Assembly (NCBI GenBank): GCA_945910005.1
Contig: OX246746.1
Span: 30,995,659 to 31,059,658, forward strand
Source: Isoperla grammatica
Lineage: Eukaryota; Arthropoda; Insecta; Plecoptera; Perlodidae
Direction: 5' to 3'
Length of the DNA: 64,000 nt
The position numbers and the translations under genes are program-made. Shown here in pieces: positions 3,612 through 58,665 of the stretch; the stretch's first letter is position 1; each line of letters opens with the position of its first letter. Below the pieces are notes generated by a model. It was not told the DNA's origin and ran no database searches. It saw nothing but the letters and a program-made list of their open reading frames with translations.

Positions 3612-4346
3612 TTAAGAGGCAGTATCCAGGACGGTTTTAGCGCGAAACACAGTGCTAATCATTGGTCTATCTCCAATCGGACGTCTAACTGACTTAGATT
3701 TAATTGTATTGTTTGACTTACCAAGCCAACTCTTGACACCGACAGTTCCTCGAGACGTGCTTCCACCGGCTACCAAATCCAACTTCTCGTCGATCTCAGC
3801 CATCCTCGCCTTGGCAGCACTCTCAATCATGCTGCGTTCAAGCACAGCAACCTTCACCGTGCTCTCCTCGTCTCTTCTCACACGAGCAACTTCGTTGTCG
3901 ATTTTCTGTCGTTCCCGCAAGTTGTCGATCTTCTGTCGTTCCAGCAAGTTGTCGATCTTCTGTTGTTCGAGGTCTGCTTCGTACTGATGACGAATTCGAT
4001 CAGTCTCCATTTGCTCCCTTGCAAGACGAAGCATTTCCCTTTGAGCCTCTAGCTCTACCTGAAGTCTACGCCGACGAACCGTACTTGCACTGGATCTACG
4101 ACTTACAATAGACCCACCGGATCTTATTGAAAGACTGTCAGACACTAAACCATGTAAAACCTCACTGCTAACATGGTCTGAATTTACTGCTGAAGTAAGC
4201 CTACATGCTTGGTTACCTTCAATCTGTGTCTGTACACTTTTTGCAGATATCCAAGAATCCCCACATGGATACTTTTCAGCTGAAATACCTCTAGTAGATC
4301 GAACAGCCTGATCTGCTAGAGCACTATCCGGTATCTTCTTTTCCAT
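3612..4346 (-). CDS. Coiled-coil ORF, possibly BEL/Pao-like Gag N-terminus
   Basis: An uninterrupted 244-codon frame starts with MEKKIPDS. Its middle has SIRSGGS and SRRSSAS followed by an RRRRLQVELEAQ helix, then charged coiled coil with an imperfectly repeated RQKIDNL(R/L)E unit (three tandem copies), and a basic tail. A serine/arginine patch followed by a Glu/Arg/Gln coiled coil is common at the start of BEL/Pao-type retrotransposon polyproteins, so a detached Gag fragment is my first guess. No protease, reverse transcriptase or LTR is visible around it, and a host coiled-coil gene cannot be excluded. The open frame in AT-rich surroundings argues that it is recent or under selection. Confidence 0.45.
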   Translation of the reverse strand: MEKKIPDSALADQAVRSTRGISAEKYPCGDSWISAKSVQTQIEGNQACRLTSAVNSDHVSSEVLHGLVSDSLSIRSGGSIVSRRSSASTVRRRRLQVELEAQREMLRLAREQMETDRIRHQYEADLEQQKIDNLLERQKIDNLRERQKIDNEVARVRRDEESTVKVAVLERSMIESAAKARMAEIDEKLDLVAGGSTSRGTVGVKSWLGKSNNTIKSKSVRRPIGDRPMISTVFRAKTVLDTAS

Positions 4347-4731
4347 TTTTAAATTAACTACTAAATATCCATAGAACTAGACGATCCGGCCCGGAAGACC
4401 ATTAATGTCGCGCCTTGCGTTGACATATAGCCATATTTAACTACAATAAATACGCTATTATAAATAATGAATCTTTAATAGTTCAAAACTAACACTGCAT
4501 GGACATTTCCAAAACAAATGACTAACAATTTCAACAATAAGCAGTTGCTAGGCAACCATCTGCTCCATCCACCGCCACCTCAGCCTCCCTGTCTCCTTGC
4601 CAAGGTCAGTTGTATTTGAGGGGCCGTGATCACTGTGAATGGATCAGATGCTTGTGGATATGACAACTATTATTGATCAGGTTACATTGGATTTTGGGTT
4701 ACTTAATTATTATGAATTTTCCTCAATGTCA

Positions 4732-21400: not shown

Positions 21401-24400
21401 TGAAGCTTTAAAACAAAAGGCCTTACACTGGCATCACGTTTGATATCTGACCATTTCTATTTTAGAGTTATCATATCGTGTGGTGATATTTCCTTCGCGT
21501 AAAGCCAGCGCTGCTACTACCACCGCCAACTCTTGGGTTTCCTTGTCTGGTACACTGGGCGAGACAAGTCCAGTCCCGATACCGAGAAGTGCCCTGGAGT
21601 TTGTATTTCATGTGAGTGTTGTCTCTAGTAAAAACATTGGTTTTGGGTTTGTTTTGAAGCGGCTCACATTAAACCACTTTCTTTTTTAATTTTACAGCAC
21701 AAAAATTTGGGTATTCTAACTACGTTGCGAATCGGGCACGACAATTCGGGCTTGTCACCTAAATGGATGGTCGAGCATGTCGTGGTCAGAAACGAAGTCA
21801 CTGCTCACACTTACAAGTAAGTGTATTGATAATACTCACCTAGTGTTCGTGGATTATACTCGCTCGAAGGTAGATATTGGAGGTGTTTATGAAGAAAACA
21901 AATTGTTACAATACTTTGTTATGTCTTATCTTTCCATTTAGGTGTTTCTGTTTTTAAAGTGTGGTTTTGTTTCCACAGTGTCAACAAGTAAAATTTAGCA
22001 GTTTTTTAACGATTTTCTTGATATGTACCTATTAGTAGTTTTTAGTAAAACAAACATTGTGTAGGGTATATAATTTATTTTTTGTATTTGACATAAAATT
22101 TGAAAAAGGCTCTGGACCCGTATTCTGTAACTTTTTTTCGTAGGTCCTGATATGGTTTCTGCCTGAATTCGACGTTGATCGGATAATTGCGATTTTGTAA
22201 CTTTTTTGGTGCCCGTTTCCGCCTGAATCCATTTCCGTGGTCCTGATATGGTTTCAGTAGCTTTTTTACTGGTGAAACGAAATCAGCCGTAATATTAAGC
22301 ATGGATAATAACTGTTTACGCGTGATATTGTACTGCAAACTGCATTTAATAATTATGTTCCATTATAATGAGTGAAAAACACCAATAAATAACGTCTTTA
22401 CTTTTCATTTGAGGCAGTCTTTATTATTCGAAAATCTCAGCCGGCGCCGCGGTCTAGTGACGCCCGCCATTAGAGAAATAAAACGTAAACAACTCTAGCC
22501 TAGGCCTATTGTATCACTAGGACTGCCGTATTACTAGGCCGATACATATAAATTCAGTGTTAAGACATAATTAGATATTGGCGTAGGCCTAGGCATTACC
22601 TTGTAGGCTTCCTAGAACATAGAGACATTCCTAGAATAGAGAATAATGGTATTCTAGGTTGCTTCTTGGGTTGTAAAAGACGCGTTCATGTAACTGTGTA
22701 GGGTTATGTTTGTTTTGATTTGAGCCGTGTTGCAGTTTGGTTGCAGTGATCACGGCCCTCTAAATCATGATATTGTCTGTTTCTGATTGGCTTAAAGCCT
22801 CGGTGGCTCAGTCGCCTTGTGATGTCCTCCCAAAGCGTACATACACATTTCAGGCGCTGTTATAGAATCGCTATTTTGTTCATCTTTGGCGACGGCTGAA
22901 ACGGGCAAATAATTTCTGCCTGCATTCGTTTCGGCTGCTTTCATTTCAGGCAGAAATGGGAAAGTTACCGAATAGGGGTCCTGTGGACATATTGTCAAGC
23001 AAGTGCTTTATTTTCTGTGTCTGACCACCATATTTACATACATTCTCTAGAGTAATGATGTGATTAGCAATAATCTATTTCTTGTCCAGCTTGTCATCTT
23101 GATTGTGATTTGACATCTATCCTATCCCCCCCCCCCATGCTCTCGAATAACATGATTGCATTCATAGCAACGTAAAGCAACAAGAATCATGTACTTAGGT
23201 TCCCATGCGGACGGTGGCTGGGCCGAGGGATAGATGACGGCTCACTAGAGAGGCTTCTAGTAGGAGAGTTGGTGCCATGCCATGTTGCCAGATTGCATTC
23301 ATAGCAACGTAAAGCAACAAGAATCATGTACTTAGGTTCCCATGCGGACGGTGGCTGGGCCGAGGGATAGATGACGGCTCACTAGAGAGGCTTCTAGTAG
23401 GAGAGTTGGTGCCGCGCCATGTTGCCAGATTGCATTCATAGCAACGTAAAGCAACAAGAATCATGTACTTAGGTTCCCATGCGGACGGTGGCTGGGCCGA
23501 GGGATAGATGACGGCTCACTAGAGAGGCTTCTAGTAGGAGAGTTGGTGCCGCACCATGTTGCCAGATTGCATTCATAGCAACGTAAAGCAACAAGAATCA
23601 TGTACTTAGGTTCCCATGCGGACGGTGGCTGGGCCGAGGGATAGATGACGGCTCACTAGAGAGGCTTCTAGTAGGAGAGTTGGTGCCGCGCCATGTTGCC
23701 AGATTGCATTCATAGCAACGTAAAGCAACAAGAATCATGTACTTAGGTTCCCATGCGGACGGTGGCTGGGCCGAGGGATAGATGACGGCTCACTAGAGAG
23801 GCTTCTAGTAGGAGAGTTGGTGCCGCACCATGTTGCCAGATTGCATTCATAGCAACGTAAAGCAACAAGAATCATGTACTTAGGTTCCCATGCGGACGGT
23901 GGCTGGGCCGAGGGATAGATGACGGCTCACTAGAGAGGCTTCTAGTAGGAGAGTTGGTGCCGCGCCATGTTGCCAGATTGCATTCATAGCAACGTAAAGC
24001 AACAAGAATCATGTACTTAGGTTCCCATGCGGACGGTGGCTGGGCCGAGGGATAGATGACGGCTCACTAGAGAGGCTTCTAGTAGGAGAGTTGGTGCCAT
24101 GCCATGTTGCCAGATTGCATTCATAGCAACGTAAAGCAACAAGATTCATGTACTTAGGTTCCCATGCGGACGGTGGCTGGGCCGAGGGATAGATGACGGC
24201 TCACTAGAGAGGCTTCTAGTAGGAGAGTTGGTGCCGCGCCATGTTGCCAGATTGCATTCATAGCAACGTAAAGCAACAAGAATCATGTACTTAGGTTCCC
24301 ATGCGGACGGTGGCTGGGCCGAGGGATAGATGACGGCTCACTAGAGAGGCTTCTAGTAGGAGAGTTGGTGCCATGCCATGTTGCCAGATTGCATTCATAG

Positions 24401-27400
24401 CAACGTAAAGCAACAAGAATCATGTACTTAGGTTCCCATGCGGACGGTGGCTGGGCCGAGGGATAGATGACGGCTCACTAGAGAGGCTTCTAGTAGGAGA
24501 GTTGGTGCCATGCCATGTTGCCAGATTGCATTCATAGCAACGTAAAGCAACAAGAATCATGTACTTAGGTTCCCATGCGGACGGTGGCTGGGCCGAGGGA
24601 TAGATGACGGCTCACTAGAGAGGCTTCTAGTAGGAGAGTTGGTGCCGCACCATGTTGCCAGATTGCATTCATAGCAACGTAAAGCAACAAGAATCATGTA
24701 CTTAGGTTCCCATGCGGACGGTGGCTGGGCCGAGGGATAGATGACGGCTCACTAGAGAGGCTTCTAGTAGGAGAGTTGGTGCCGCGCCATGTTTCCAGAT
24801 TGCATTCATAGCAACGTAAAGCAACAAGAATCATGTACTTAGGTTCCCATGCGGACGGTGGCTGGGCCGAGGGATAGATGACGGCTCACTAGAGAGGCTT
24901 CTAGTAGGAGAGTTGGTGCCGCGCCATGTTGCCAGATTGCATTCATAGCAACGTAAAGCAACAAGAATCATGTACTTAGGTTCCCATGCGGACGGTGGCT
25001 GGGCCGAGGGATAGATGACGGCTCACTAGAGAGGCTTCTAGTAGGAGAGTTGGTGCCATGCCATGTTGCCAGATTGCATTCATAGCAACGTAAAGCAACA
25101 AGAATCATGTACTTAGGTTCCCATGCGGACGGTGGCTGGGCCGAGGGATAGATGACGGCTCACTAGAGAGGCTTCTAGTAGGAGAGTTGGTGCCATGCCA
25201 TGTTGCCAGATTGCATTCATAGCAACGTAAAGCAACAAGAATCATGTACTTAGGTTCCCATGCGGACGGTGGCTGGGCCGAGGGATAGATGACGGCTCAC
25301 TAGAGAGGCTTCTAGTAGGAGAGTTGGTGCCATGCCATGTTGCCAGATTGCATTCATAGCAACGTAAAGCAACAAGAATCATGTACTTAGGTTCCCATGC
25401 GGACGGTGGCTGGGCCGAGGGATAGATGACGGCTCACTAGAGAGGCTTCTAGTAGGAGAGTTGGTGCCATGCCATGTTGCCAGATTGCATTCATAGCAAC
25501 GTAAAGCAACAAGAATCATGTACTTAGGTTCCCATGCGGACGGTGGCTGGGCCGAGGGATAGATGACGGCTCACTAGAGAGGCTTCTAGTAGGAGAGTTG
25601 GTGCCATGCCATGTTGCCAGATTGCATTCATAGCAACGTAAAGCAACAAGAATCATGTACTTAGGTTCCCATGCGGACGGTGGCTGGGCCGAGGGATAGA
25701 TGACGGCTCACTAGAGAGGCTTCTAGTAGGAGAGTTGGTGCCGCGCCATGTTGCCAGATTGCATTCATAGCAACGTAAAGCAACAAGAATCATGTACTTA
25801 GGTTCCCATGCGGACGGTGGCTGGGCCGAGAGATAGATGACGGCTCACTAGAGAGGCTTCTAGTAGGAGAGTTGGTGCCGCGCCATGTTGCCAGATTGCA
25901 TTCATAGCAACGTAAAGCAACAAGAATCATGTACTTAGGTTCCCATGCGGACGGTGGCTGGGCCGAGGGATAGATGACGGCTCACTAGAGAGGCTTCTAG
26001 TAGGAGAGTTGGTGCCATGCCATGTTGCCAGATTGCATTCATAGCAACGTAAAGCAACAAGAATCATGTACTTAGGTTCCCATGCGGACGGTGGCTGGGC
26101 CGAGGGATAGATGACGGCTCACTAGAGAGGCTTCTAGTAGGAGAGTTGGTGCCATGCCATGTTGCCAGATTGCATTCATAGCAACGTAAAGCAACAAGAA
26201 TCATGTACTTAGGTTCCCATGCGGACGGTGGCTGGGCCGAGGGATAGATGACGGCTCACTAGAGAGGCTTCTAGTAGGAGAGTTGGTGCCATGCCATGTT
26301 GCCAGATTGCATTCATAGCAACGTAAAGCAACAAGAATCATGTACTTAGGTTCCCATGCGGACGGTGGCTGGGCCGAGGGATAGATGACGGCTCACTAGA
26401 GAGGCTTCTAGTAGGAGAGTTGGTGCCATGCCATGTTGCCAGATTGCATTCATAGCAACGTAAAGCAACAAGAATCATGTACTTAGGTTCCCATGCGGAC
26501 GGTGGCTGGGCCGAGGGATAGATGACGGCTCACTAGAGAGGCTTCTAGTAGGAGAGTTGGTGCCGCGCCATGTTGCCAGATTGCATTCATAGCAACGTAA
26601 AGCAACAAGAATCATGTACTTAGGTTCCCATGCGGACGGTGGCTGGGCCGAGGGATAGATGACGGCTCACTAGAGAGGCTTCTAGTAGGAGAGTTGGTGC
26701 CGCGCCATGTTGCCAGATTGCATTCATAGCAACGTAAAGCAACAAGAATCATGTACTTAGGTTCCCATGCGGACGGTGGCTGGGCCGAGGGATAGATGAC
26801 GGCTCACTAGAGAGGCTTCTAGTAGGAGAGTTGGTGCCATGCCATGTTGCCAGATTGCATTCATAGCAACGTAAAGCAACAAGAATCATGTACTTAGGTT
26901 CCCATGCGGACGGTGGCTGGGCCGAGGGATAGATGACGGCTCACTAGAGAGGCTTCTAGTAGGAGAGTTGGTGCCATGCCATGTTGCCAGCCAGATTGCA
27001 TTCATAGCAACGTAAAGCAACAAGAATCATGTACTTAGGTTCCCATGCGGGCGGTGGCTGGGCCGAGGGATAGATGACGGCTCACTAGAGAGGCTTCTAG
27101 TAGGAGAGTTGGTGCCGCGCCATGTTGCCAGATTGCATTCATAGCAACGTAAAGCAACAAGAATCATGTACTTAGGTTCCCATGCGGACGGTGGCTGGGC
27201 CGAGGGATAGATGACGGCTCACTAGAGAGGCTTCTAGTAGGAGAGTTGGTGCCGCGCCATGTTGCCAGATTGCATTCATAGCAACGTAAAGCAACAAGAA
27301 TCATGTACTTAGGTTCCCATGCGGACGGTGGCTGGGCCGAGGGATAGATGACGGCTCACTAGAGAGGCTTCTAGTAGGAGAGTTGGTGCCGCGCCATGTT

Positions 27401-30400
27401 GCCAGATTGCATTCATAGCAACGTAAAGCAACAAGAATCATGTACTTAGGTTCCCATGCGGACGGTGGCTGGGCCGAGGGATAGATGACGGCTCACTAGA
27501 GAGGCTTCTAGTAGGAGAGTTGGTGCCATGCCATGTTGCCAGATTGCATTCATAGCAACGTAAAGCAACAAGAATCATGTACTTAGGTTCCCATGCGGAC
27601 GGTGGCTGGGCCGAGGGATAGATGACGGCTCACTAGAGAGGCTTCTAGTAGGAGAGTTGGTGCCATGCCATGTTGCCAGATTGCATTCATAGCAACGTAA
27701 AGCAACAAGAATCATGTACTTAGGTTCCCATGCGGACGGTGGCTTGGCCGAGGGATAGATGACGGCTCACTAGAGAGGCTTCTAGTAGGAGAGTTGGTGC
27801 CATGCCATGTTGCCAGATTGCATTCATAGCAACGTAAAGCAACAAGAATCATGTACTTAGGTTCCCATGCGGACGGTGGCTGGGCCGAGGGATAGATGAC
27901 GGCTCACTAGAGAGGCTTCTAGTAGGAGAGTTGGTGCCGCGCCATGTTGCCAGATTGCATTCATAGCAACGTAAAGCAACAAGAATCATGTACTTAGGTT
28001 CCCATGCGGACGGTGGCTGGGCCGAGGGATAGATGACGGCTCACTAGAGAGGCTTCTAGTAGGAGAGTTGGTGCCATGCCATGTTGCCAGATTGCATTCA
28101 TAGCAACGTAAAGCAACAAGAATCATGTACTTAGGTTCCCATGCGGACGGTGGCTGGGCCGAGGGATAGATGACGGCTCACTAGAGAGGCTTCTAGTAGG
28201 AGAGTTGGTGCCGCGCCATGTTGCCAGATTGCATTCATAGCAACGTAAAGCAACAAGAATCATGTACTTAGGTTCCCATGCGGACGGTGGCTGGGCCGAG
28301 GGATAGATGACGGCTCACTAGAGAGGCTTCTAGTAGGAGAGTTGGTGCCATGCCATGTTGCCAGATTGCATTCATAGCAACGTAAAGCAACAAGAATCAT
28401 GTACTTAGGTTCCCATGCGGACGGTGGCTGGGCCGAGGGATAGATGACGGCTCACTAGAGAGGCTTCTAGTAGGAGAGTTGGTGCCGCACCATGTTGCCA
28501 GATTGCATTCATAGCAACGTAAAGCAACAAGAATCATGTACTTAGGTTCCCATGCGGACGGTGGCTGGGCTGAGGGATAGATGACGGCTCACTAGAGAGG
28601 CTTCTAGTAGGAGAGTTGGTGCCGCGCCATGTTGCCAGATTGCATTCATAGCAACGTAAAGCAACAAGAATCATGTACTTAGGTTCCCATGCGGACGGTG
28701 GCTGGGCCGAGGGATAGATGACGGCTCACTAGAGAGGCTTCTAGTAGGAGAGTTGGTGCCATGCCATGTTGCCAGATTGCATTCATAGCAACGTAAAGCA
28801 ACAAGAATCATGTACTTAGGTTCCCATGCGGACGGTGGCTGGGCCGAGGGATAGATGACGGCTCACTAGAGAGGCTTCTAGTAGGAGAGTTGGTGCCGCG
28901 CCACGTTGCCAGCGAGGATCTAACGGATGTCTGTCGCACTCCGCTGAGGTGTCGAAGTCCGAGCGTACCAAGGAGAGCTCAGGACATGAGGACCACCATT
29001 CCAGACATACAACACATACTCGGTAACCCCCAGGGATAAACGTCTCAGTTAATGGCAGAGGGTAGTCTTTCTGAAAACTGCACCAAATTGTATTTTTTTG
29101 GTAGGCATGTTGCTGATTATTGTTAATCGATTTGGGGCGGTTTTATAGTTCAAATCGGAATAGTCGCACTATTTCTGATCATCCACGCTATTGTGATTTT
29201 GCTGTAGATCGTGTAAGTCATCATCATTTTAAATTCACCACCTAGTGCCAGTCGGCAATATGTTAGTGAAATGCCCCTTCCAGATCATTTAAATACTGTA
29301 CAGATATCTAGTTTTTATTTTTATTTACATATTATGCATCATATCAATGACTAAATTTATTTCTTCTCAATTTTAACCATCAAGTGTTATCGTTTCTTCT
29401 TAGCTATTTAAAGGCAATGAAATAGTTTGGATGATTGGGAATCTTTATGTAGCTGCCAATATAACAAAAATAGTTAAACAACATATATTTTTTGTTAGTT
29501 TGCACATATGGATAAAAGCTCATTAAGCATGAATTCACAAGTTGTACTCACCAGTAATGAGTTGGGGAGCAGAGTGTTTTGCCCCGATTAAAAGTAACCA
29601 AGTTTGAAAATACTGAAAGAAGATGTTTGAGCATGCAATTTATATTAAATGTTTTGTTGCTTGTCCAATTCACCAAAAATTGAAAATCCAAGTATTTCAT
29701 CTTGCAGCGTAAATTGGCGTCGATATTCCCGACATAGGGGATTGAATATTTTTGTGTGTGTTGGCTTTCAGGAGATGCAGTGAACAATATCGTCAAGTTT
29801 TACTACAGACGCCAGCCCGATCGTGATCGCAACTCACTTACTGTGCTTCTCTGTGGAGAGCTAGGACTTGTATACTGCTTGGAACAAGCTCTCTTGACTG
29901 GCTTCAAGTCTGCTAGACTATTTGGGAAAAATCTCTACTTATGGGACTATTTTGGTAAGTAGCCTCAGGTGGCCACAGTTTGATATTGAGACTTCATAAA
30001 CTTCAACGTAGTTTATTCTCTAAATGATTGGGTGACTTATCAATCGGCACTTCTAGTTTGATGGGGATACCCAACTCTACTTAAACTCTACCGTGTAGAG
30101 ATCAGTAATCATATTTTTGCCATTATCAATATCGGCACTGTTTTGCCGTACCGTATTTTTTTTTTCGGTGTTAATAAAATGGTAAACAATATGCCTACTC
30201 ATGATGGCAGGAAATATGATGTTTACAAGTTACATTGCTTTCAGTTCGTGCCAAAGAGCAGTTTGAAGCAAGTGCGCTTGAAGAGGCGCAAGTTCCGTCG
30301 GAAGAAAGCGAGGTGGTTAAGTGTTTCTGCTATCTGGTGGAGCAAATATCCACCTCAACTCACATGCTGGGAAAGGATGATAAATTCCAGCTCTTTATTT

Positions 30401-45311: not shown

Positions 45312-48300
45312 CAATAGAATTATGCTGGTTGGTTGGGTAGTTGGTTGTTTGGAGCTTGCTGACAAGTTGTGAAAAACTGCAAGGATTGCAATCAACTTCT
45401 TCTTTTGTGGCCTACAGCATGATGAAATATTGTTACAGCCAGCACATAATTACGAAGCATAACAAAATATGGTTTCAAGTACAAAAATTTAAACATAACA
45501 CATCATAAATGTTATAAAATATCTATTAATTTGAATATTTCAACTTTTTGTGAAATATTTCAATGGCATGTGAAATATTTCGCGTTGAAACTTTCAAATT
45601 GAAATATTTCACACTTCGATCACTAATATTATGTATGTGCCATCCCTTGTACGAAAACAATGTGTGGGTGTAATATTTTACTCCATCATGATGTGACATT
45701 CCTTAGTATATCCAATATTCATGCATTTCATCAACTTTCAATGTACAAAATGTTTAAGACTTAAGTGCATACAACATCAACTTCCAGCCCTGGTCTACCT
45801 TAAAGACAATGCCTGAATTCAAGGGGTCTAGCCTATAAACAAGGTTGGAACTTGATTTGGTCCATTTGATTTAGTCCAACTTGATTTAGACCTACTTTTG
45901 TACAGTCCTGGGACATGAGATAGTTAAGCAAATTTGTCAAACTTGTTACATCATGTTTAATTTTTCTCTCAATTATTTTTGATCTAATAGTAATGTTATC
46001 TTCTTAGAGAGAAAATGGGTTGTGTGGCCTAGATGTACTTACTTTGACAGGTTCATGCAAGCTCAAGTTTAAGGAAAACAGTTACGTAGATCTTAATAGC
46101 TTTCTTAAATTGGGATCTCAAAAATGGTTTCAGAGTTGAATTGTACATTGTATATATGTTTGCTTTTAGCATGAAAGTGCACTAACAATAACATGCATTT
46201 GTTTCTTATTTGTGTACTTTTTTTTTCACTTACTCCAAAATGCAGGCCGAAGTTACAGTAAGTAATTAATATTTTCTATGTGTATACATAATGTGCTTGC
46301 AGACGCTAATGTAGCTATACTCACGTAGATAAGCAGTATTACCCTATTTTGATCCAGTCATCCTAGCATTGAAGAGTGTCATACTCCTAGCCAGTAGAGA
46401 GGAACATGCTTGCTACCTTCCCATCTAGGGTGAACATCTGTCCCGGAAAACCGGGATTGTCCCGGTTTTCTGACCCTTGTCCCGGTGTCCCGAAAAAAAC
46501 TTTCGGGACGCCCAAATGTCCCGGATTTGTCTAGAAGGGTAATATTCATTAAATTTAATGCTTTTAATAAGAAAAATATTACTTACAGTAATGACGAAAC
46601 TCAGTTATTTGAGCACTAGCACAGTTCTCTTTGGTAACTTACCACGTGCAGAGCGGGCTACGATTATCGCAAAGTGAGACGCGACGCGAGGAAGTTGGGA
46701 CCAACCCCCCCCCCCGCGGTACATCAGCACCACGTGCAGAGCGGGCTACGATTATTGCAACGTGAGACGCGGCGCGAGGAAGTTGGGACCACCCCCCCCC
46801 GCGGTACGTCAGCTTCGCGACTTAATTTTATGTGTCCGGGATTTTTTTTTTTGAAATATGGTCACCCTATTCCCATTCCATGTTCATGGTGACTACTTAG
46901 TCTGAATTTCTCCTGTCCCTAGTTTCAAAGACCTATATCGAGCAATTAAATACCCTAATTTTACAACGCTTATATTAGCTTCATAATATGATTGTCTGTC
47001 TGTCTGGACGGAATCTTATAATCGATATTTCACTTACTTCTAAATGTCCGATCGAGCTGAAAGTTTTCACACAGACGTATTCGTAATGACAATACACGAA
47101 TCAATTGTCATATTTACTAAATAATCAATTAATTAATCATAATTAATTAATTGTTGTTTTATATGGGAATTGATATTTCACCCACTTCCGAACGTTGAAT
47201 TAAGCTGAAAGTTTTCACACAGACGTATAGGCCTACGGTACCTAATGAAAATACATGAATCAATTGTCATATTTACTAAATAATCAATTAAGCCATCATA
47301 ATTAATTAATCAAAGTTTTATGTGGGAATCGATATTTCACCCACTTCCCAACGTCCGATCGAGCTAAAAATTTTCACACAGTCGTATTTTCTAAATGGCT
47401 ATTATGAATCAATTATCAGATTCACTAATTAATTAATTAATCCACCATAACTAATTAATTAAACAATTAGCTTCATATGGGAAATTAGTCACAGCTAGTG
47501 AGGATGGGCCAACCACATGCAGGCATCGGAATTACCGCTGGTTGTTCGGGACTCAAATATCCGTGACGAAAGCATCGGATATGTTTCTATGCAGCAAGAA
47601 TGTCATTGTTGGCCGATATCGCTGGATCGTGCATGAACGGAACTGTCCGAAATTCAAGTTTGCAATGCGAGCACGCTAGTTTGCGAGTGAAGTTAACAAG
47701 TACAAGTACACAAGTATGCAGTCTTCTAAATTCGGACACGTCCAGTGAGCATATATTCGATTGCAAGATTCTTTAAGACTAAAAAGTATAAAATAATATT
47801 ACATGAAAAAAAAATATTTTTTTTTAAAACAACGCTTATATTTAAATGCACTAAAAAGTAAAAAATAAATTTTCGGCCAGCAAATTTTTGCCTCACTCGG
47901 AAAATAAAAGCGTTGGGCGCTTTCGGTATTGACATAGATTGCAGTATTCTGCTGTTTATGCAGGGAAAGCGCCCAACGCTTTTATTTTCCGTGTGAGGCA
48001 AAAATTTGTTGGGCGAAAATTTATTTTTTACTTTTTAGTGCATATAAATAATAAGCGTTGTTTTAAAAAAAAAAATATTTTTTTTTTTATCTAATATTAT
48101 TTAACAAAACTATTCATCATGAATTGTGATGACATTAAGTTTTTTTGTGTGTGTAACATTTAAGAGAATGTTGACTGGCTACCTTCCCCTACTACATGTT
48201 TCCCAAGATTTTAATCAAAAGTCAAGCACTGAAACGATATTAGGTTTGAATATAGTATGTTGCACTCATCGGGCTGGGCACAAATTGGCGTTTGATACAA

Positions 48301-50987: not shown

Positions 50988-53900
50988 GTGAGTACCACGT
51001 GGTGTGAGACCAGAAAGAGGAGTAACACCACTGACCAAGTCTAATCAGCATCTTGTATGATTTCAGGGCAGCTTTCTTTAGAGGCTGAAAAAACTTGGCT
51101 TCAATATGAGTGTGAAAGATGGGGCCTGAAATTCAATTTAGAAGGTAAGTCATGTTGTAAGTAGCTGTGTGTACATATCCAAAATTGTTGTCCAGTTCAG
51201 GTGAGATAGAATACCAATCCAGTCAATAATAAATTGGTACCGTAGTCACTTCAGTTTCAAGTAATCTCTCCGAATTGAAACCCAAAAAAGTGGTTATTTA
51301 TAATTCAATGTAAGAACTGGACCAAAATCTGAAACCTGAAACCCCACATCCATATTAATTTTTTAAAGCTGTGCAAACCAAGTCACCATTATCTGCAATA
51401 GACCATTTTTAGAATGATCTAGGACCCTAAAATTGGTTTTATTCACGGTCCTCTAAATCAGTTGCATACCAATTAAAAATATGAAATCCAGTTAACAGAT
51501 GCCATTAACCTTGACGACATTTGAAAACTAGTATTTAATTGTGCATTGTTGTCATTGCAGATTTAAAGGACTGTGATTAACTCAGTCTAACCGTGCTAGA
51601 TCCACTGCAATCTTTTTACGATGTGAAATGAAAATTTAGCTGATTTGAAAACTATCAATTTTGTTCCATTTGAATTTTAAGTAAAACACTACAAATTTAT
51701 CAGGGATTTAAATAATCGTATTTGAATGGGCTATGTCCAAACACATGGCAACTGCAACATATTTCGACTTGTCACGTGTTTTCATGTCTATCCTTCCCAT
51801 TGGCCTGACTTGGAGGTAACACAATAGGGTGTGTTAGTCTGGCTCTAGTAACTATTAAACAAACTGACGACAGTACTTGTGTATTACATCCCAGTTAAGC
51901 CTATTGGTGATTTGGATTTATTTCTTCTGGTCCAGTCACCATAAGGAACTTATTTTTTATGTGTGGATGAAATTACCTTGACTGCACATATTAAATATGT
52001 CTTTAATTTTACTTACTAACTGAAAATTAGTAGAAAATAAATACGTACTGTATTTACTCACGTCAAGGCAACATCCATAATTTCATAATATGTGTTTGAA
52101 AAATGAGAGTATGGCCATTATGTAGATACATTTTTTGTTGAAAATACACCATGCCCTTTTTAAAAATAGATTCTATAGAATCATGGTATGCCCACTATGT
52201 GAGGGCACTGTGTATTCGAGTAAATACAGTAATACTGGCACAATGGATAACAATGATTACATCATATTAATTGACAAATCTACCATTGTTTTTTAATACT
52301 ACAGTTTGAAAGTTTAAATGTTTATCCAGTTAACAGAGCCATACTGCACGTTTTCTACTTGAAGCTGTCAAAATACATTTGTCGAATGTTGCGATGGATC
52401 CTAGGCCTTGCTAACGGAACGGTTTTCTGTGTAACTTCCTGTAATCTGTTGTCTGATGCTCATGATTAAAGCATTGGCTCACTATGCTCCTCCTATAGGG
52501 ATGGGCATAGATATCAAGTATGAGTAGCAACCTTGTGGATGCCGACATCATATGTGAAAACAAGTCGAAGCCAATCAGCGGGTGGGTTTTCCAAATACAT
52601 ACAATAGGTACCTCACTCATCTATGACGTCAGCATCCACAAGATTGCCGTAGAACAACTTTATATATTCAATTCCAAAATCAATATTGACGATTGATATC
52701 ATTCTAATATCAAATATCGATCGATAAAGTGGATAATTTTGCCCATCCCTACTAGGATGTTACAGTATTATAAAGTTGGAAATTATTAGTTTTCTTTTTA
52801 ATGCGTTTTCACGACGCTATTGGATGTGAGCCCGGCAAGATACTGCTGTGTGTGTGTCACTCCGTTCCTTCCTAACAACCAAGATAGCCGATGTCAAATA
52901 GTATTGACGTGATTGTGACTTGCCAGGTGTTTTATGAAGAGCTACTTGCTGTTACATAATGTTAAGTCGAGAGAAAATTTATAAAATTTAGTGTGGATCT
53001 AGATATTATTATATTTTTTTAATGTTCTGTATTTATAGTATAGTAAATTAATATGAACACATTTACTATCTACTAGCCGAATCGAGTTCAGATTATCCAT
53101 AATCTCGGAAAATTGTGTCTGTAAATTCTGTTGTTAGTTATAATTTGGCAGGTGTTGTTTTTGTGGGAACATATATATATTATATTGTTGGTAAGATAGT
53201 GGCCATATGGGTGATACTTTTTTATTCGCTCTTCGAGTCGCTTGACTTCGGTCGTACTATTTCTATGGTGTCGGCTACAATGATCTTACCAAATGCAGTA
53301 AACATGGTGAAGTCTTGATGCCCAATAGGCACATGGCCACTCTCTTACCAACAATATAATATAGGCTCTCTATTGTAGCCTCATCAAGCATACTTATGTG
53401 TAGACGTGGCAGTGGATCGTATGAGAGAGTATTGAGTAAGCAGTGAAGGATTAGAGGGCAGTGTGATGGTTGCTAGGAGACCGATTGTTGTGTTTTAGAG
53501 TCTGTTATTGGCTGTAATATTTGATTGAAAGGAGTTTTCTTATAGCGTTTTCTTTTTAAAGGTAAGAATTTTCAAACATTAAAAAATGTGTGTTCATTAT
53601 CCATTGGCATCTGCACACTGTAAGACCGTAACATTTAGGCACACTGCACACGTTTCTAATTGTCTTCAGCCATGTCGCATCAAGAAGAGAGCCAGTCAAC
53701 TCCCGCTCTGATCCACGTGGCCACATATGACCCGACTGCTCCCAGTACCTCTCTAGGCATCATTCCCGAGAACAACCTGCTCGAGAGTTATACTCGCCTC
53801 TCTATAAGCCTAGAGGAGAACGGCTTGTTCAAGGGTTCAAGCCGTTCATCAAGTAGTTCCGCAACAAGCCACCACATGACGTTAGAGGAACTCCGAGCTG

Positions 53901-56900
53901 TCAACCGATACGCCGAAAGTACCAAAAGCCTCACCTATCTACCACAGGTATAGTATTTCATCAGATGATATGAACTCATAGTCTAATAAAACGTTTAAAT
54001 GGACGATTTTGTGCTAAAAACAAAAAATTAATTGATCAGAGGTGGCCAGAGTGAAGCTGTATTGATTGCTTGTGATTGTTTGTTAGGTTCATGAACGTCA
54101 AACAGCTCGCATGAGAACCCGTTCAGAGTGGTTCCTATCGCCTGCAGAGCTGGGTGGCCAAAGTGAAGCTGTATTGATTGCTTGTGATTGTTTGTTAGGT
54201 TCATGAACGTCAAACAGCTTGCATGAGAACCCGATCAGAGTGGTTCCTATCGCCTGCAGAGCTGGGTGGCCAAAGTGAAGCTGTATTGATTGCTTGTGAT
54301 TGTTTGTTAGGTTCATGAACGTCAAACAGCTCGCATGAGAACCCGATCAGAGTGGTTCCTATCGCCTGCAGAGCTGGGTGGCCAAAGTGAAGCTGTATTG
54401 ATTGGTTGTGATTGTTTGTTAGGTTCATGAACGTCAAACAGCTCGCATGAGAACCCGATCAGAGTGGTTCCTATCGCCTGCAGAGCTGGGTGGCCAAAGT
54501 GAAGCTGTATTGATTGGTTGTGATTGTTTGTTAGGTTCATGAACGTCAAACAGCTCGCATGAGAACCCGATCAGAGTGGTTCCTATCGCCTGCAGAGCTG
54601 GGTGGCCAAAGTGAAGCTGTATTGATTGCTTGTGATTGTTTGTTAGGTTCATGAACGTCAAACAGCTCGCATGAGAACCCGATCAGAGTGGTTCCTATCG
54701 CCTGCAGAGCTGGGTGGCCAAAGTGAAGCTGTATTGATTGGTTGTGATTGTTTGTTAGGTTCATGAACGTCAAACAGCTCGCATGAGAACCCGATCAGAG
54801 TGGTTCCTATCGCCTGCAGAGCTGGGTGGCCAAAGTGAAGCTGTATTGATTGGTTGTGATTGTTTGTTAGGTTCATGAACGTCAAACAGCTCGCATGAGA
54901 ACCCGTTCAGAGTGGTTCCTATCGCCTGCAGAGCTGGGTGGCCGAAGTGAAGCTGTATTGATTGCTTGTGATTGTTTGTTAGGTTCATGAACGTCAAACA
55001 GCTCGCATGAGAACCCGTTCAGAGTGGTTCCTATCGCCTGCAGAGCTGGGTGGCCAAAGTGAAGCTGTATTGATTGCTTGTGATTGTTTGTTAGGTTCAT
55101 GAACGTCAAACAGCTCGCATGAGAACCCGTTCAGAGTGGTTCCTATCGCCTGCAGAGCTGGGTGGCCAAAGTGAAGCTGTATTGATTGCTTGTGATTGTT
55201 TGTTAGGTTCATGAACGTCAAACAGCTCGCATGAGAACCCGTTCAGAGTGGTTCCTATCGCCTGCAGAGCTGGGTGGCCGAAGTGTAGGTGTGGACAGTG
55301 ACCCGTCATGTATTCACGTACTTAGAAGATCCAACAATCGTTCCTCGTCTTCGGGGAATATCGGTAACTACCACTGTTATACACTATTGTAGGATTCTAA
55401 TTTAACACTTAGCGTGCGGCCGGCGTAATATTACGCCGCGCGATGTCGTGCCAGGTTAGCGGGCGGCGTAGTATTACGTCGGGCATATATCAAACCTTCT
55501 AGTGACTGCGACGTTTTTCTACGCCGCTTGGATTTTGCGAGCACATTGGTACTGTTGTTTACCGTTAGATGGCATAGGCAGCCGCTTTTATTTTCTGTTG
55601 GCGCCAAAATTTCTAGATGTTTGCATGAAAAGTGCGAATGGCTTCTAGTAGGCGTTTTATTATTTTATTGTTATTATTTTATTATTATTATTAGTAAAGA
55701 GTAAAAATGTTCTAGCTTCAAAATAAGTCAATAAAAAAAATTAAAAATTTTTTTTTTAAATTTTTTATTTTTTTTATTTTTCAAAACTCCAAAATTGTCA
55801 CTTTTTTACAAAATTATGACTTATTCATATGAAAATAGAAAAAAAAAATCGTTTGGAGATCAAGAGTCAAGCTTTTTTTTAGGTATAACTCCCACACACA
55901 TACCTTCGATACTTCCTTCGGTATAATATCGAGAAAAGTGGCAAAAACCCCCAGCACCAGGGGAAGGACCTGCCTACAACGTCCAGCACCCAAAGTGTTA
56001 AGGCTGTATGTCTACCTACCCTGCGGATTCCCGATTTTGGTCGGTTAAGATTGCTTTAAAATGCTTTGAAATTGTCAGAAAGTAAACCAAACTATGTCGT
56101 ACCCTGTAAAATGTGATGCTCTTTCTTATAAATTTTTCTTGGTTCCAATAAATATTTCCATTTTTCAATCAACTTATTTGTGTAAAGTGTGTTGCAACTT
56201 GCAACAACACATTACAAAAGTTACCCTAAACAAGTTAATTTGCAAAATGGAAATATTTATTGACACAATGAATTGAGACACAATGAATCACTATCAACAT
56301 GTACTGTATTTTAGCCCTGTGTTATTTATTCTGTAGTAGGCCTTACAGTAATGGTAGTTGTTATTGTTTAAATTTCCTGTTTGTGCCTAATGTAATAATA
56401 TGCTGCATGTGCTAACATTTTATAAATAATACAGGACAGACATTTACTATTAATGGCTATCACACATTTTGCCAGTATTTGGTTATGGAAAAAATATTTC
56501 GAGTAGTATCTGTTGTTACTTTGTAACTAAGTAATTTTTTGACCGATTTTGCCACAAAACTAATGGCGTTCAATCCACAACGACAGTTGTAGATGGTCCA
56601 AATTTCAACTTTATCGGAGTCTGTTTGACTGCTGTCGCGAGACAAAACTTAAATGAGTGCCGTAAATGTAGAACGGAAGTGCTCGCTTAAAAAATACACA
56701 TTTTGTACTAAACCCTGTTTATTTGTGTGAGTGTTAGGTTAGTAGTGAAAGTATTGTTTCAGTTGGTGCAGGTTTAAGTGCAAGTGCAGAGTCAGTGAAA
56801 CGACCGAGCTTTCGACGTTCGTCAAGTAGGCGAGATCACGTTCACCGTTCTTCCAGCAGACGCAAGAACAAAGAAAACGGTGCGAAAACAACACAACAAA

Positions 56901-57464: not shown

Positions 57465-58665
57465 TAGAGATACGTGAAAATAGCGTTTTGTGTATAGATG
57501 CTACAAAGCGCTATTTTTCAGTAGAAACTAAGGTTTTTCTGTTCCTATTTTATTATATTTAACATAGTACCGGTAACTATACTTTGTTTATGATAAATGC
57601 AATTTGATAGTTTTTCTATGTATTGTGTAGATTGGGGTCACAATTCTTACAATAACACACAGGAAACAACCAATTGACTATTTATATTACCTAATGAAGC
57701 ATCCAATAAGAAGAGTAGACTCCCAGAGGGACCTGGGCGTCATTACAGACTCAAAACTTTTGTTTAAAAAACATGTGGACAAAATCACATCTAAAGCCAT
57801 GTCCATGTTGGGAATCATCTATAGATTCACTGATATAAATGACCCAGCAGCATTAAGAGCATATTACACGGGATGTATTTTACCAATCATCGAATATTGC
57901 TCCCCAATATGGGCAATGGCTGCAGACACAAATCTAAAAACCCTAGATCGAGTGGTCTCATTTTTTCTTGCAATAGTGAAGTATCGAGTGCCGGCTTTAA
58001 AACATTGCACCAAACAGGAAATTATGCAATCTTTAAATATTGACAGCCTTACTTCTCGCAGAGTACGATCTGACATGGCTTTTCTGCATCGCATTGTTAA
58101 CGGTCATGTCAGGTCGGACATTCTTGTTTCGCTGTTTCCGCTCCGAATACCTTCTCGTACAACTCTTCTCACCAACCTATTCCCAAATATAAATAAATAT
58201 ATATAAATATAAAATAAAATATAAATATAAATATAAACCTATTCGCCTATCTATTACCAAAAGATCGCTTTTCTACCGCCTACCTACTACATTTAATTCT
58301 TTTCCCCAATCTTCTTCATATGACATATTTGCTAACAACTTAAAATCATTCCTTACCTCAACTCGCCTTTATGTAAACCAGTAGTTAAAAGCAGAGGATG
58401 CGCCGGCCGATGCGATTCTCACATTGGTTGTGTTTTTTATTAAAAAAAAAAAAAAAAAAATGTATAGGCCTAATGTTATAATGTTACGTTTGAAGGTTTA
58501 ATGTAAAATGGCTGTATAGCTGTATTTAAATCCTGAATAAATAAATGATTTAAAAATAAAAATTTGAGAAAACTTCATTCACAAGTTTTTTAATCTTGGC
58601 AAAAAAATAGATGCTACAAAACGCTTTAAAATGACAATTGAAAATGCTATTTTCACGTATCACTA
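57465..58665. mobile_element. hAT-type MITE interrupted by a non-LTR retrotransposon
   Basis: The ends TAGAGATACGTGAAAATAG and CTATTTTCACGTATCACTA are inverted repeats; a perfect 8-bp duplication GCAATAAT flanks them (57457-57464 and 58666-58673). The internal motif ATAGATGCTACAAA(G/A)CGCT appears near 57494 and again near 58608, on either side of the inserted retroelement. Confidence 0.85.
57600..58560 (+). pseudogene. CR1/Jockey-like non-LTR retrotransposon, 3' end of ORF2 plus tail
   Basis: The frame holds ITHRKQPI, RRVDSQRDLGVITDSKLLFK, GCILPIIEYCSPIWA and RVRSDMAFLHRIVNGHV, the C-terminal region of a CR1/Jockey-class reverse transcriptase. The frame stops at 58204-58206 in a tract of ATAAAT repeats; after that tract the frame resumes (SLFYRLPTTFNSFP) and ends at about 58383. 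An A-rich run (58442-58460) and AATAAA words form the tail. Catalytic RT and endonuclease parts are absent: a 5'-truncated copy. Confidence 0.82.

Follow-up and report, generated by a model that had tools for sequence, protein, structure and literature searches.

Tandem duplications across exon/intron boundaries are known from amphioxus, where they are referred to as mirages. In the BflGb6 gene the 3' end of an intron and the 5' part of exon 2 are duplicated in the manner of a minisatellite, with haplotypes of six and of three units, while in BflGb9 a 3' exon boundary is duplicated; reverse transcription polymerase chain reaction suggests that these mirages are spliced normally, and the same text cites somatic instability at amphioxus Adh3 (PMC3087553). 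PGBD5, with a triplication, and troponin C are further examples (PMC3902484). Here we compare with these systems a 42-copy array that precedes an exon of a DENND5 gene in the plecopteran insect Isoperla grammatica. The window, which is the whole stretch of DNA analysed, is 64,000 nucleotides long (C6:30995659-31059658 in an assembly of 874,298,753 bases and 603 contigs). The DENND5 array is most probably a mirage, that is, a minisatellite of 42 tandem boundary copies; tandem duplication and unequal exchange are the likely means of its growth, and we predict that splicing removes it together with its intron.

The first-pass annotation of this DNA had placed the array in no described class, a claim that has to be given up since the amphioxus mirages share its architecture (PMC3087553, PMC3902484). 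Common to both are a tandem duplication across an exon/intron boundary, on the acceptor side (BflGb6) or the donor side (BflGb9), and a functional boundary copy, with homogenised inner copies in amphioxus. Unlike the amphioxus cases described there, the host is an insect, the units number 42 as against six and three in the BflGb6 haplotypes and three in PGBD5, and little searching yielded seven loci in one genome. The mirages found in open PMC texts are all cephalochordate, and no insect mirage was found by keyword search of the open-access literature. The architecture is already known from amphioxus; what is new is the insect lineage, the many units and, apparently, the many loci.

Two other systems are more distant. 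Human internal tandem repeats in segmental duplications, with 27 intron modifications reported, share the location at exon-intron boundaries and the altered gene structure; they have on average four units of 30 bp, lie in duplicated paralogues and often go with alternative splicing (PMC2812944), whereas the units described here measure 112–161 bp and the genes matched as single loci where searched. The duplication in a potato RdRp gene (PMC4974935) is also a tandem one carrying splice signals, but here no new intron is evident, and an existing intron has gained copies of its own acceptor and of the exon head.

Results

The features of the DENND5 locus are as follows (a slash in a splice site marks the junction).

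21698..21816, + strand: DENND5 exon preceding the array, with donor CAA/GTAAGT at 21817 (sequence; tblastn with insect DENND5)
23154..28911, + strand: array of 42 copies of a 137-bp intron-exon boundary, acceptor side (TRF, script)
28775..28911, + strand: terminal copy 42, joined to the remaining exon, with a private T-to-C change at unit position 130 (sequence, script)
28820..29022, + strand: functional DENND5 PLAT exon, with donor TCG/GTAACC at 29023 (sequence, PDB match, profile score)

Tandem repeats in the window were called by Tandem Repeats Finder (TRF), and unit starts and spacings were determined by script. The TRF call is 137 bp x 42.0 from 23154 to 28912, with 98% matches. The 42 unit starts run from 23154 to 28775 and 40 of the 41 spacings are 137 bp, the remaining one being 141 bp because 4 bp are duplicated where copy 28 ends. 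Positions 1–45 of the unit are intron, ending in TTAG, and positions 46–137 are the first 92 bp of the exon. The acceptor is present 42 times, of which only the last, with its exon start at 28820, is open as far as the exon's donor at 29023. These results bear out the earlier description of a satellite built from a 3' splice site and an exon head, in its unit, copy number and coordinates as well as in the near identity of its copies, and they confirm that the functional copy is the last one and in frame. The whole unit matches only this locus in the 874-Mb genome (42 places), besides one 40-bp partial match; such genome-wide match counts are lower bounds. The 42-copy array is not a chance product.

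The identity of the exon is supported by several observations. When the exon at 28820 is spliced in silico to the exon ending at 21816, the product matches Rab6-interacting protein 1 (PDB 3cwz, E 1.2e-32), and the array exon scores as PLAT (PF01477). The junction peptide is kept with at most two substitutions in 7/7 insect DENND5 proteins aligned, and tblastn with Periplaneta DENND5 gave 20 matches, in order along the window. The first-listed relatives (Anabrus, Periplaneta, Bacillus, Cryptotermes, Zootermopsis) are 68–72% identical over 41–42% of the approximate query.

The array is not singular, as the window has a second one some 25 kb further downstream and five others were found elsewhere in the genome, six of the seven being acceptor-side arrays and the seventh a donor-side array. 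The second array belongs to a RhoGAP71E gene.

53670..53947, + strand: RhoGAP71E exon preceding the second array, with donor CAG/GTATAG at 53948 (sequence, exon mapping)
54041..55292, + strand: second boundary array, 112 bp x 11.2, with 11 acceptors (TRF, script)
55207..55363, + strand: functional RhoGAP71E exon of the second array, with donor TCG/GTAACT at 55364 (sequence, exon mapping)

Its 112-bp unit consists of an intron end with TTAG followed by the head of the RhoGAP71E exon, VHERQTARMRTRSEWFLSP, and of the 11 acceptors only the last continues to the exon's end. The right edge of the array falls at a spot that is variable in the two orthologues examined, between RSEWFL(S/T)P and DSDP, and the genome search matched the unit at this locus only. 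Identity of the gene to its relatives is 84% for Periplaneta, 81% for Anabrus and 83% for Bacillus. Judged by the DENND5 and RhoGAP71E proteins, the host is most likely a polyneopteran insect close to cockroaches, crickets and stick insects. A comparison of 20 DENND5 and eight RhoGAP71E exons, each with 120-bp flanks, revealed no boundary copies beyond the two known arrays; three short matches (22–45 bp) lie elsewhere, and the matches of the exon at 53670 stem from the second array in its flank.

One of the other arrays came from a sample of 18 stretches of 10 kb (L010-L027, 180 kb), picked at round-number positions. This array, 126 bp x 12 and present in 1 of the 18 stretches (L020), is located at the acceptor of the KR exon in a fatty acid synthase (FASN) gene; the exon before it ends at L020:4034, and joining the two exons yields a peptide that matches fatty acid synthase (E 2.2e-30). 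The remaining four were spotted in family searches of the genome through the equal spacing of repeated profile stretches, among 360 matches listed (139 kinase, 88 myosin and 133 kinesin). They comprise, on the acceptor side, a myosin array of 3 x 155 bp (L028), a kinesin array of 7 x 152 bp (L029) and an array of 2 x 161 bp in a kinesin-heavy-chain-like gene (L030), and, on the donor side, an array in a third kinesin (L031). In the myosin array, the repeated copies bear about 28 bp before the acceptor that are absent from the intron ahead of the first copy (filler). In the third kinesin the donors are 138 and 137 bp apart, the first copy is joined to the exon, and three donors and a part copy are seen, the fetched stretch ending within the latter. 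No array was found among the 139 kinase matches listed, with 126 of 678 candidates scored. All three kinesin arrays cover the P-loop, maybe because such searches detect well-conserved exon pieces only.

Two other repeated patterns turned up in the family searches. Scattered over C15 (41.6 Mb), the beginning of the kinesin motor domain (profile about 1–94) is matched dozens of times, many of the matches forming inverted pairs about 2 kb apart (for example 2339474/2341559, 13771791/13773884 and 20151585/20153683), which could represent an amplified palindrome or an element family, perhaps on a sex chromosome; apart from the gene at 28.46 Mb, C15 accounts for 49 of the 133 listed kinesin matches (hand count), which are largely a dispersed family. 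At C1:33475044-33479396, six irregularly spaced matches to one stretch of the myosin profile (about 377–435) resemble mutually exclusive muscle myosin exons.

To follow the consequences of using an upstream acceptor, the frame was read from every acceptor as far as the end of the exon. A stop was reached from 41/41 upstream acceptors in DENND5, 10/10 in RhoGAP71E, 8/8 tested (of 11) in FASN, 2/2 in the myosin, and 6/6 and, in coding phase, 1/1 in the kinesins. In total, 68/68 tested upstream acceptors of the six acceptor-side arrays hit a stop, and the last acceptor keeps the frame in all six. The FASN acceptors were found by an exact pattern (9 of 12, terminal included); the three that it missed are in the same frame, since 126 is divisible by 3, and reading on from them meets the TAA in copies 10 and 11. 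Insect muscle myosin has mutually exclusive exons, which are repeated exon sequence inside one gene. Unlike those, the DENND5 copies are exon pieces (the first 92 bp) at exact spacing and without the rest of the exon. Mutually exclusive exons, which would require every copy to be a complete exon that has an acceptor, a donor and an open frame of its own, were rejected for DENND5, where reading on gives stops.

Nothing points to coding constraint on the internal copies. The variable sites at the three codon positions are 3/31, 2/30 and 3/31 in DENND5 (40 internal copies, the 141-bp copy 28 left out), 1/27, 1/26 and 1/26 in RhoGAP71E, and 4/33, 8/33 and 5/33 in FASN. In the latter, 22/126 sites differ among the 11 internal copies, and 11/11 have lost 12 exon bases coding FSSV that the functional end copy retains, an observation that backs the earlier idea of a constrained end unit. 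This loss in internal copies only, the scattered DENND5 variants and the single private change of the DENND5 end copy may reflect concerted evolution with the boundary copies excluded. At unit positions 124–126 of the DENND5 array, 21 copies have ATG, 17 GCG and 4 GCA, and these variants are scattered along the array (26 runs versus 25.2 expected), which fits exchange or conversion better than simple copying between neighbours. There are few changes besides this site, and therefore the array is either recent or under homogenisation. The order of the variants has no clear period that would point to higher-order repeats, only lag 6 of 15 lags reaching P 0.02. Unusual folding as a cause was not indicated by the DNA z-scores of the two window units on both strands (0.34, 0.51, -0.63 and -0.52).

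Intronic sequence of the DENND5 unit is similar to a dispersed repeat.

28775..28814, + strand: intronic 40 bp of the DENND5 unit, matching at 90% identity the tail of a dispersed repeat resembling a short interspersed element (SINE) (genome match)

The matching SINE-like repeat is at C7:66626778; another copy lies close by, there is a match of 18 bp in L011, and the neighbourhood of the C7 repeat bears what we take to be a tRNA-like box, GTTCGAATCC. A dispersed SINE-like repeat with a tRNA-like box was seen at L009:4821-5240 and L011:8519-8668, its tail matching the intronic part of the unit.

Discussion

In every array a tandem duplication spans an exon/intron boundary and an authentic copy adjoins the exon, keeping the frame in the six acceptor-side arrays and being the first copy on the donor side. 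The process that we propose would start with the tandem duplication of a segment spanning the 3' splice site. To judge from the minisatellite density, tandem duplications of such sizes would be frequent in this genome. Within an exon such a duplication would usually be harmful, while across a splice boundary it would leave an intact boundary on the exon side and be nearly neutral. With arrays of such a period being common in the DNA sampled, boundaries would be hit now and then, and the hit would be tolerated as nearly neutral. Unequal exchange could then expand the array, whose 3'-most copy stays joined to the remaining exon. The message would be unchanged if the spliceosome pairs the last acceptor with the exon's own donor, by exon definition; the other copies, where tested, cannot yield an open message. 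As the variants are scattered, exchange or conversion would homogenise the inner copies. The third kinesin presents the mirror image, in which the donor is duplicated and the first copy is joined to the exon.

Several observations weigh against this account. The DENND5 exon's own donor is weak, scoring 5/9 in a crude consensus count out of 9, while donor-like sites within the unit score 6/9; pairing with the exon's own donor is therefore not assured and is the weakest step proposed. The notion that the units lack donor-like sites was rejected. Use of the second donor in the donor-side kinesin array would leave the frame open, and no stop would block such misuse. Nucleotide diversity (pi) among internal DENND5 copies is higher in the exon part (0.0159) than in the intron part (0.0011), which is unexpected under simple neutrality, a contrast that rests mainly on the three-base site at unit positions 124–126. 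Finally, the preponderance of acceptor-side arrays, six to one, may point to a bias for which the account has no place.

The upstream acceptors might instead be decoys with a regulatory role, their use giving stop-bearing, degraded messages and their number tuning output. The stops reached from all 68 tested acceptors and the donor-like sites within units agree with this proposal, but neutral copies predict the same stops, the exon part of internal copies lacks signs of constraint, the genes have no evident common theme, and amphioxus mirages are reported not to disturb splicing (PMC3087553); we regard it as unlikely. That the assembler inflated one or a few real copies is very unlikely: near identity and the one 141-bp unit could be read in this way, but there are private changes and scattered variants among the copies, as well as the differing sites among internal FASN copies, and the seven arrays have different units in different genes, with 2-copy and 3-copy cases that are easy to assemble.

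Two further explanations start from the sequence at the junction. AG/GT is found at the acceptors of DENND5, RhoGAP71E and FASN, and could recreate a donor after a wrong splice, units then being removed stepwise as a ratchet of error correction. The myosin acceptor reads AG/CG, however, and those of the acceptor-side kinesins AG/GG and AG/AT, and the donor recreated at the DENND5 acceptor, CAA/GTTCCC, is poor, so that we find a ratchet highly improbable. As a key to the arrays in general, AG/GT seemed strong with three arrays and was rejected when it dropped to 3/6 once the myosin and kinesins were added, compared with 2/20 non-array acceptors read by eye in the two window genes (P ~0.06, by hand). 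In the Rogers model an intron is created through a duplicated exonic AGGT segment, and the arrays would have made these introns; three units have AGGT at the boundary, and tandem duplication is the motor of this model (PMC4974935). Such a gain needs both splice sites in the duplicated segment, which is not the case for DENND5 and FASN, whose donors lie outside the arrays (1.3 kb upstream, at 21817, and 0.2 kb upstream, at L020:4035, respectively), and the DENND5 unit's intronic sequence looks like a dispersed repeat rather than exon. We consider this origin extremely improbable, and a mirage, with the array inside an existing intron, remains our interpretation.

The sampled stretches contain nine arrays with a period of at least 30 and at least four copies in 180 kb, two of them cut by the stretch's end. 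One of these nine lies on a boundary, the eight others having been judged off-boundary by eye from reading frames, as against 2/2 arrays in the window. One boundary array per 180 kb would give about 4,900 in 874 Mb, a very rough figure as the Poisson 95% range of 0.025–5.6 events corresponds to about 120–27,000. It is possible, and we put it forward tentatively, that exon-boundary satellites are pervasive in this genome, numbering thousands at both kinds of splice site, that introns enlarge by taking in copies of the exon next to them, and that passing dozens of identical acceptors is routine for the spliceosome in ordinary conserved genes. Seven mirages in one insect genome, if true, would mean that the process is not a lancelet oddity and would offer a second lineage to study. 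The arrays form graded natural constructs, with 2 to 42 near-identical acceptors before one exon, on which the choice of the spliceosome among equal sites can be tested. In addition, they hint at how tandem duplication might lead to the growth of introns, and they may be a trap for gene annotation.

Additional observations

The window contains two-copy tandem duplications of 88 and 159 bp (46641-46813 and 47084-47387), outside mapped exons, which are possibly young seeds of the same process. On the minus strand, a 254-codon open frame (3615-4376) contains a 27-bp tandem repeat (3894-3968). On the plus strand, a 191-codon open frame (57631-58203) looks by eye like the end of the reverse transcriptase of a non-long-terminal-repeat (non-LTR) retrotransposon.

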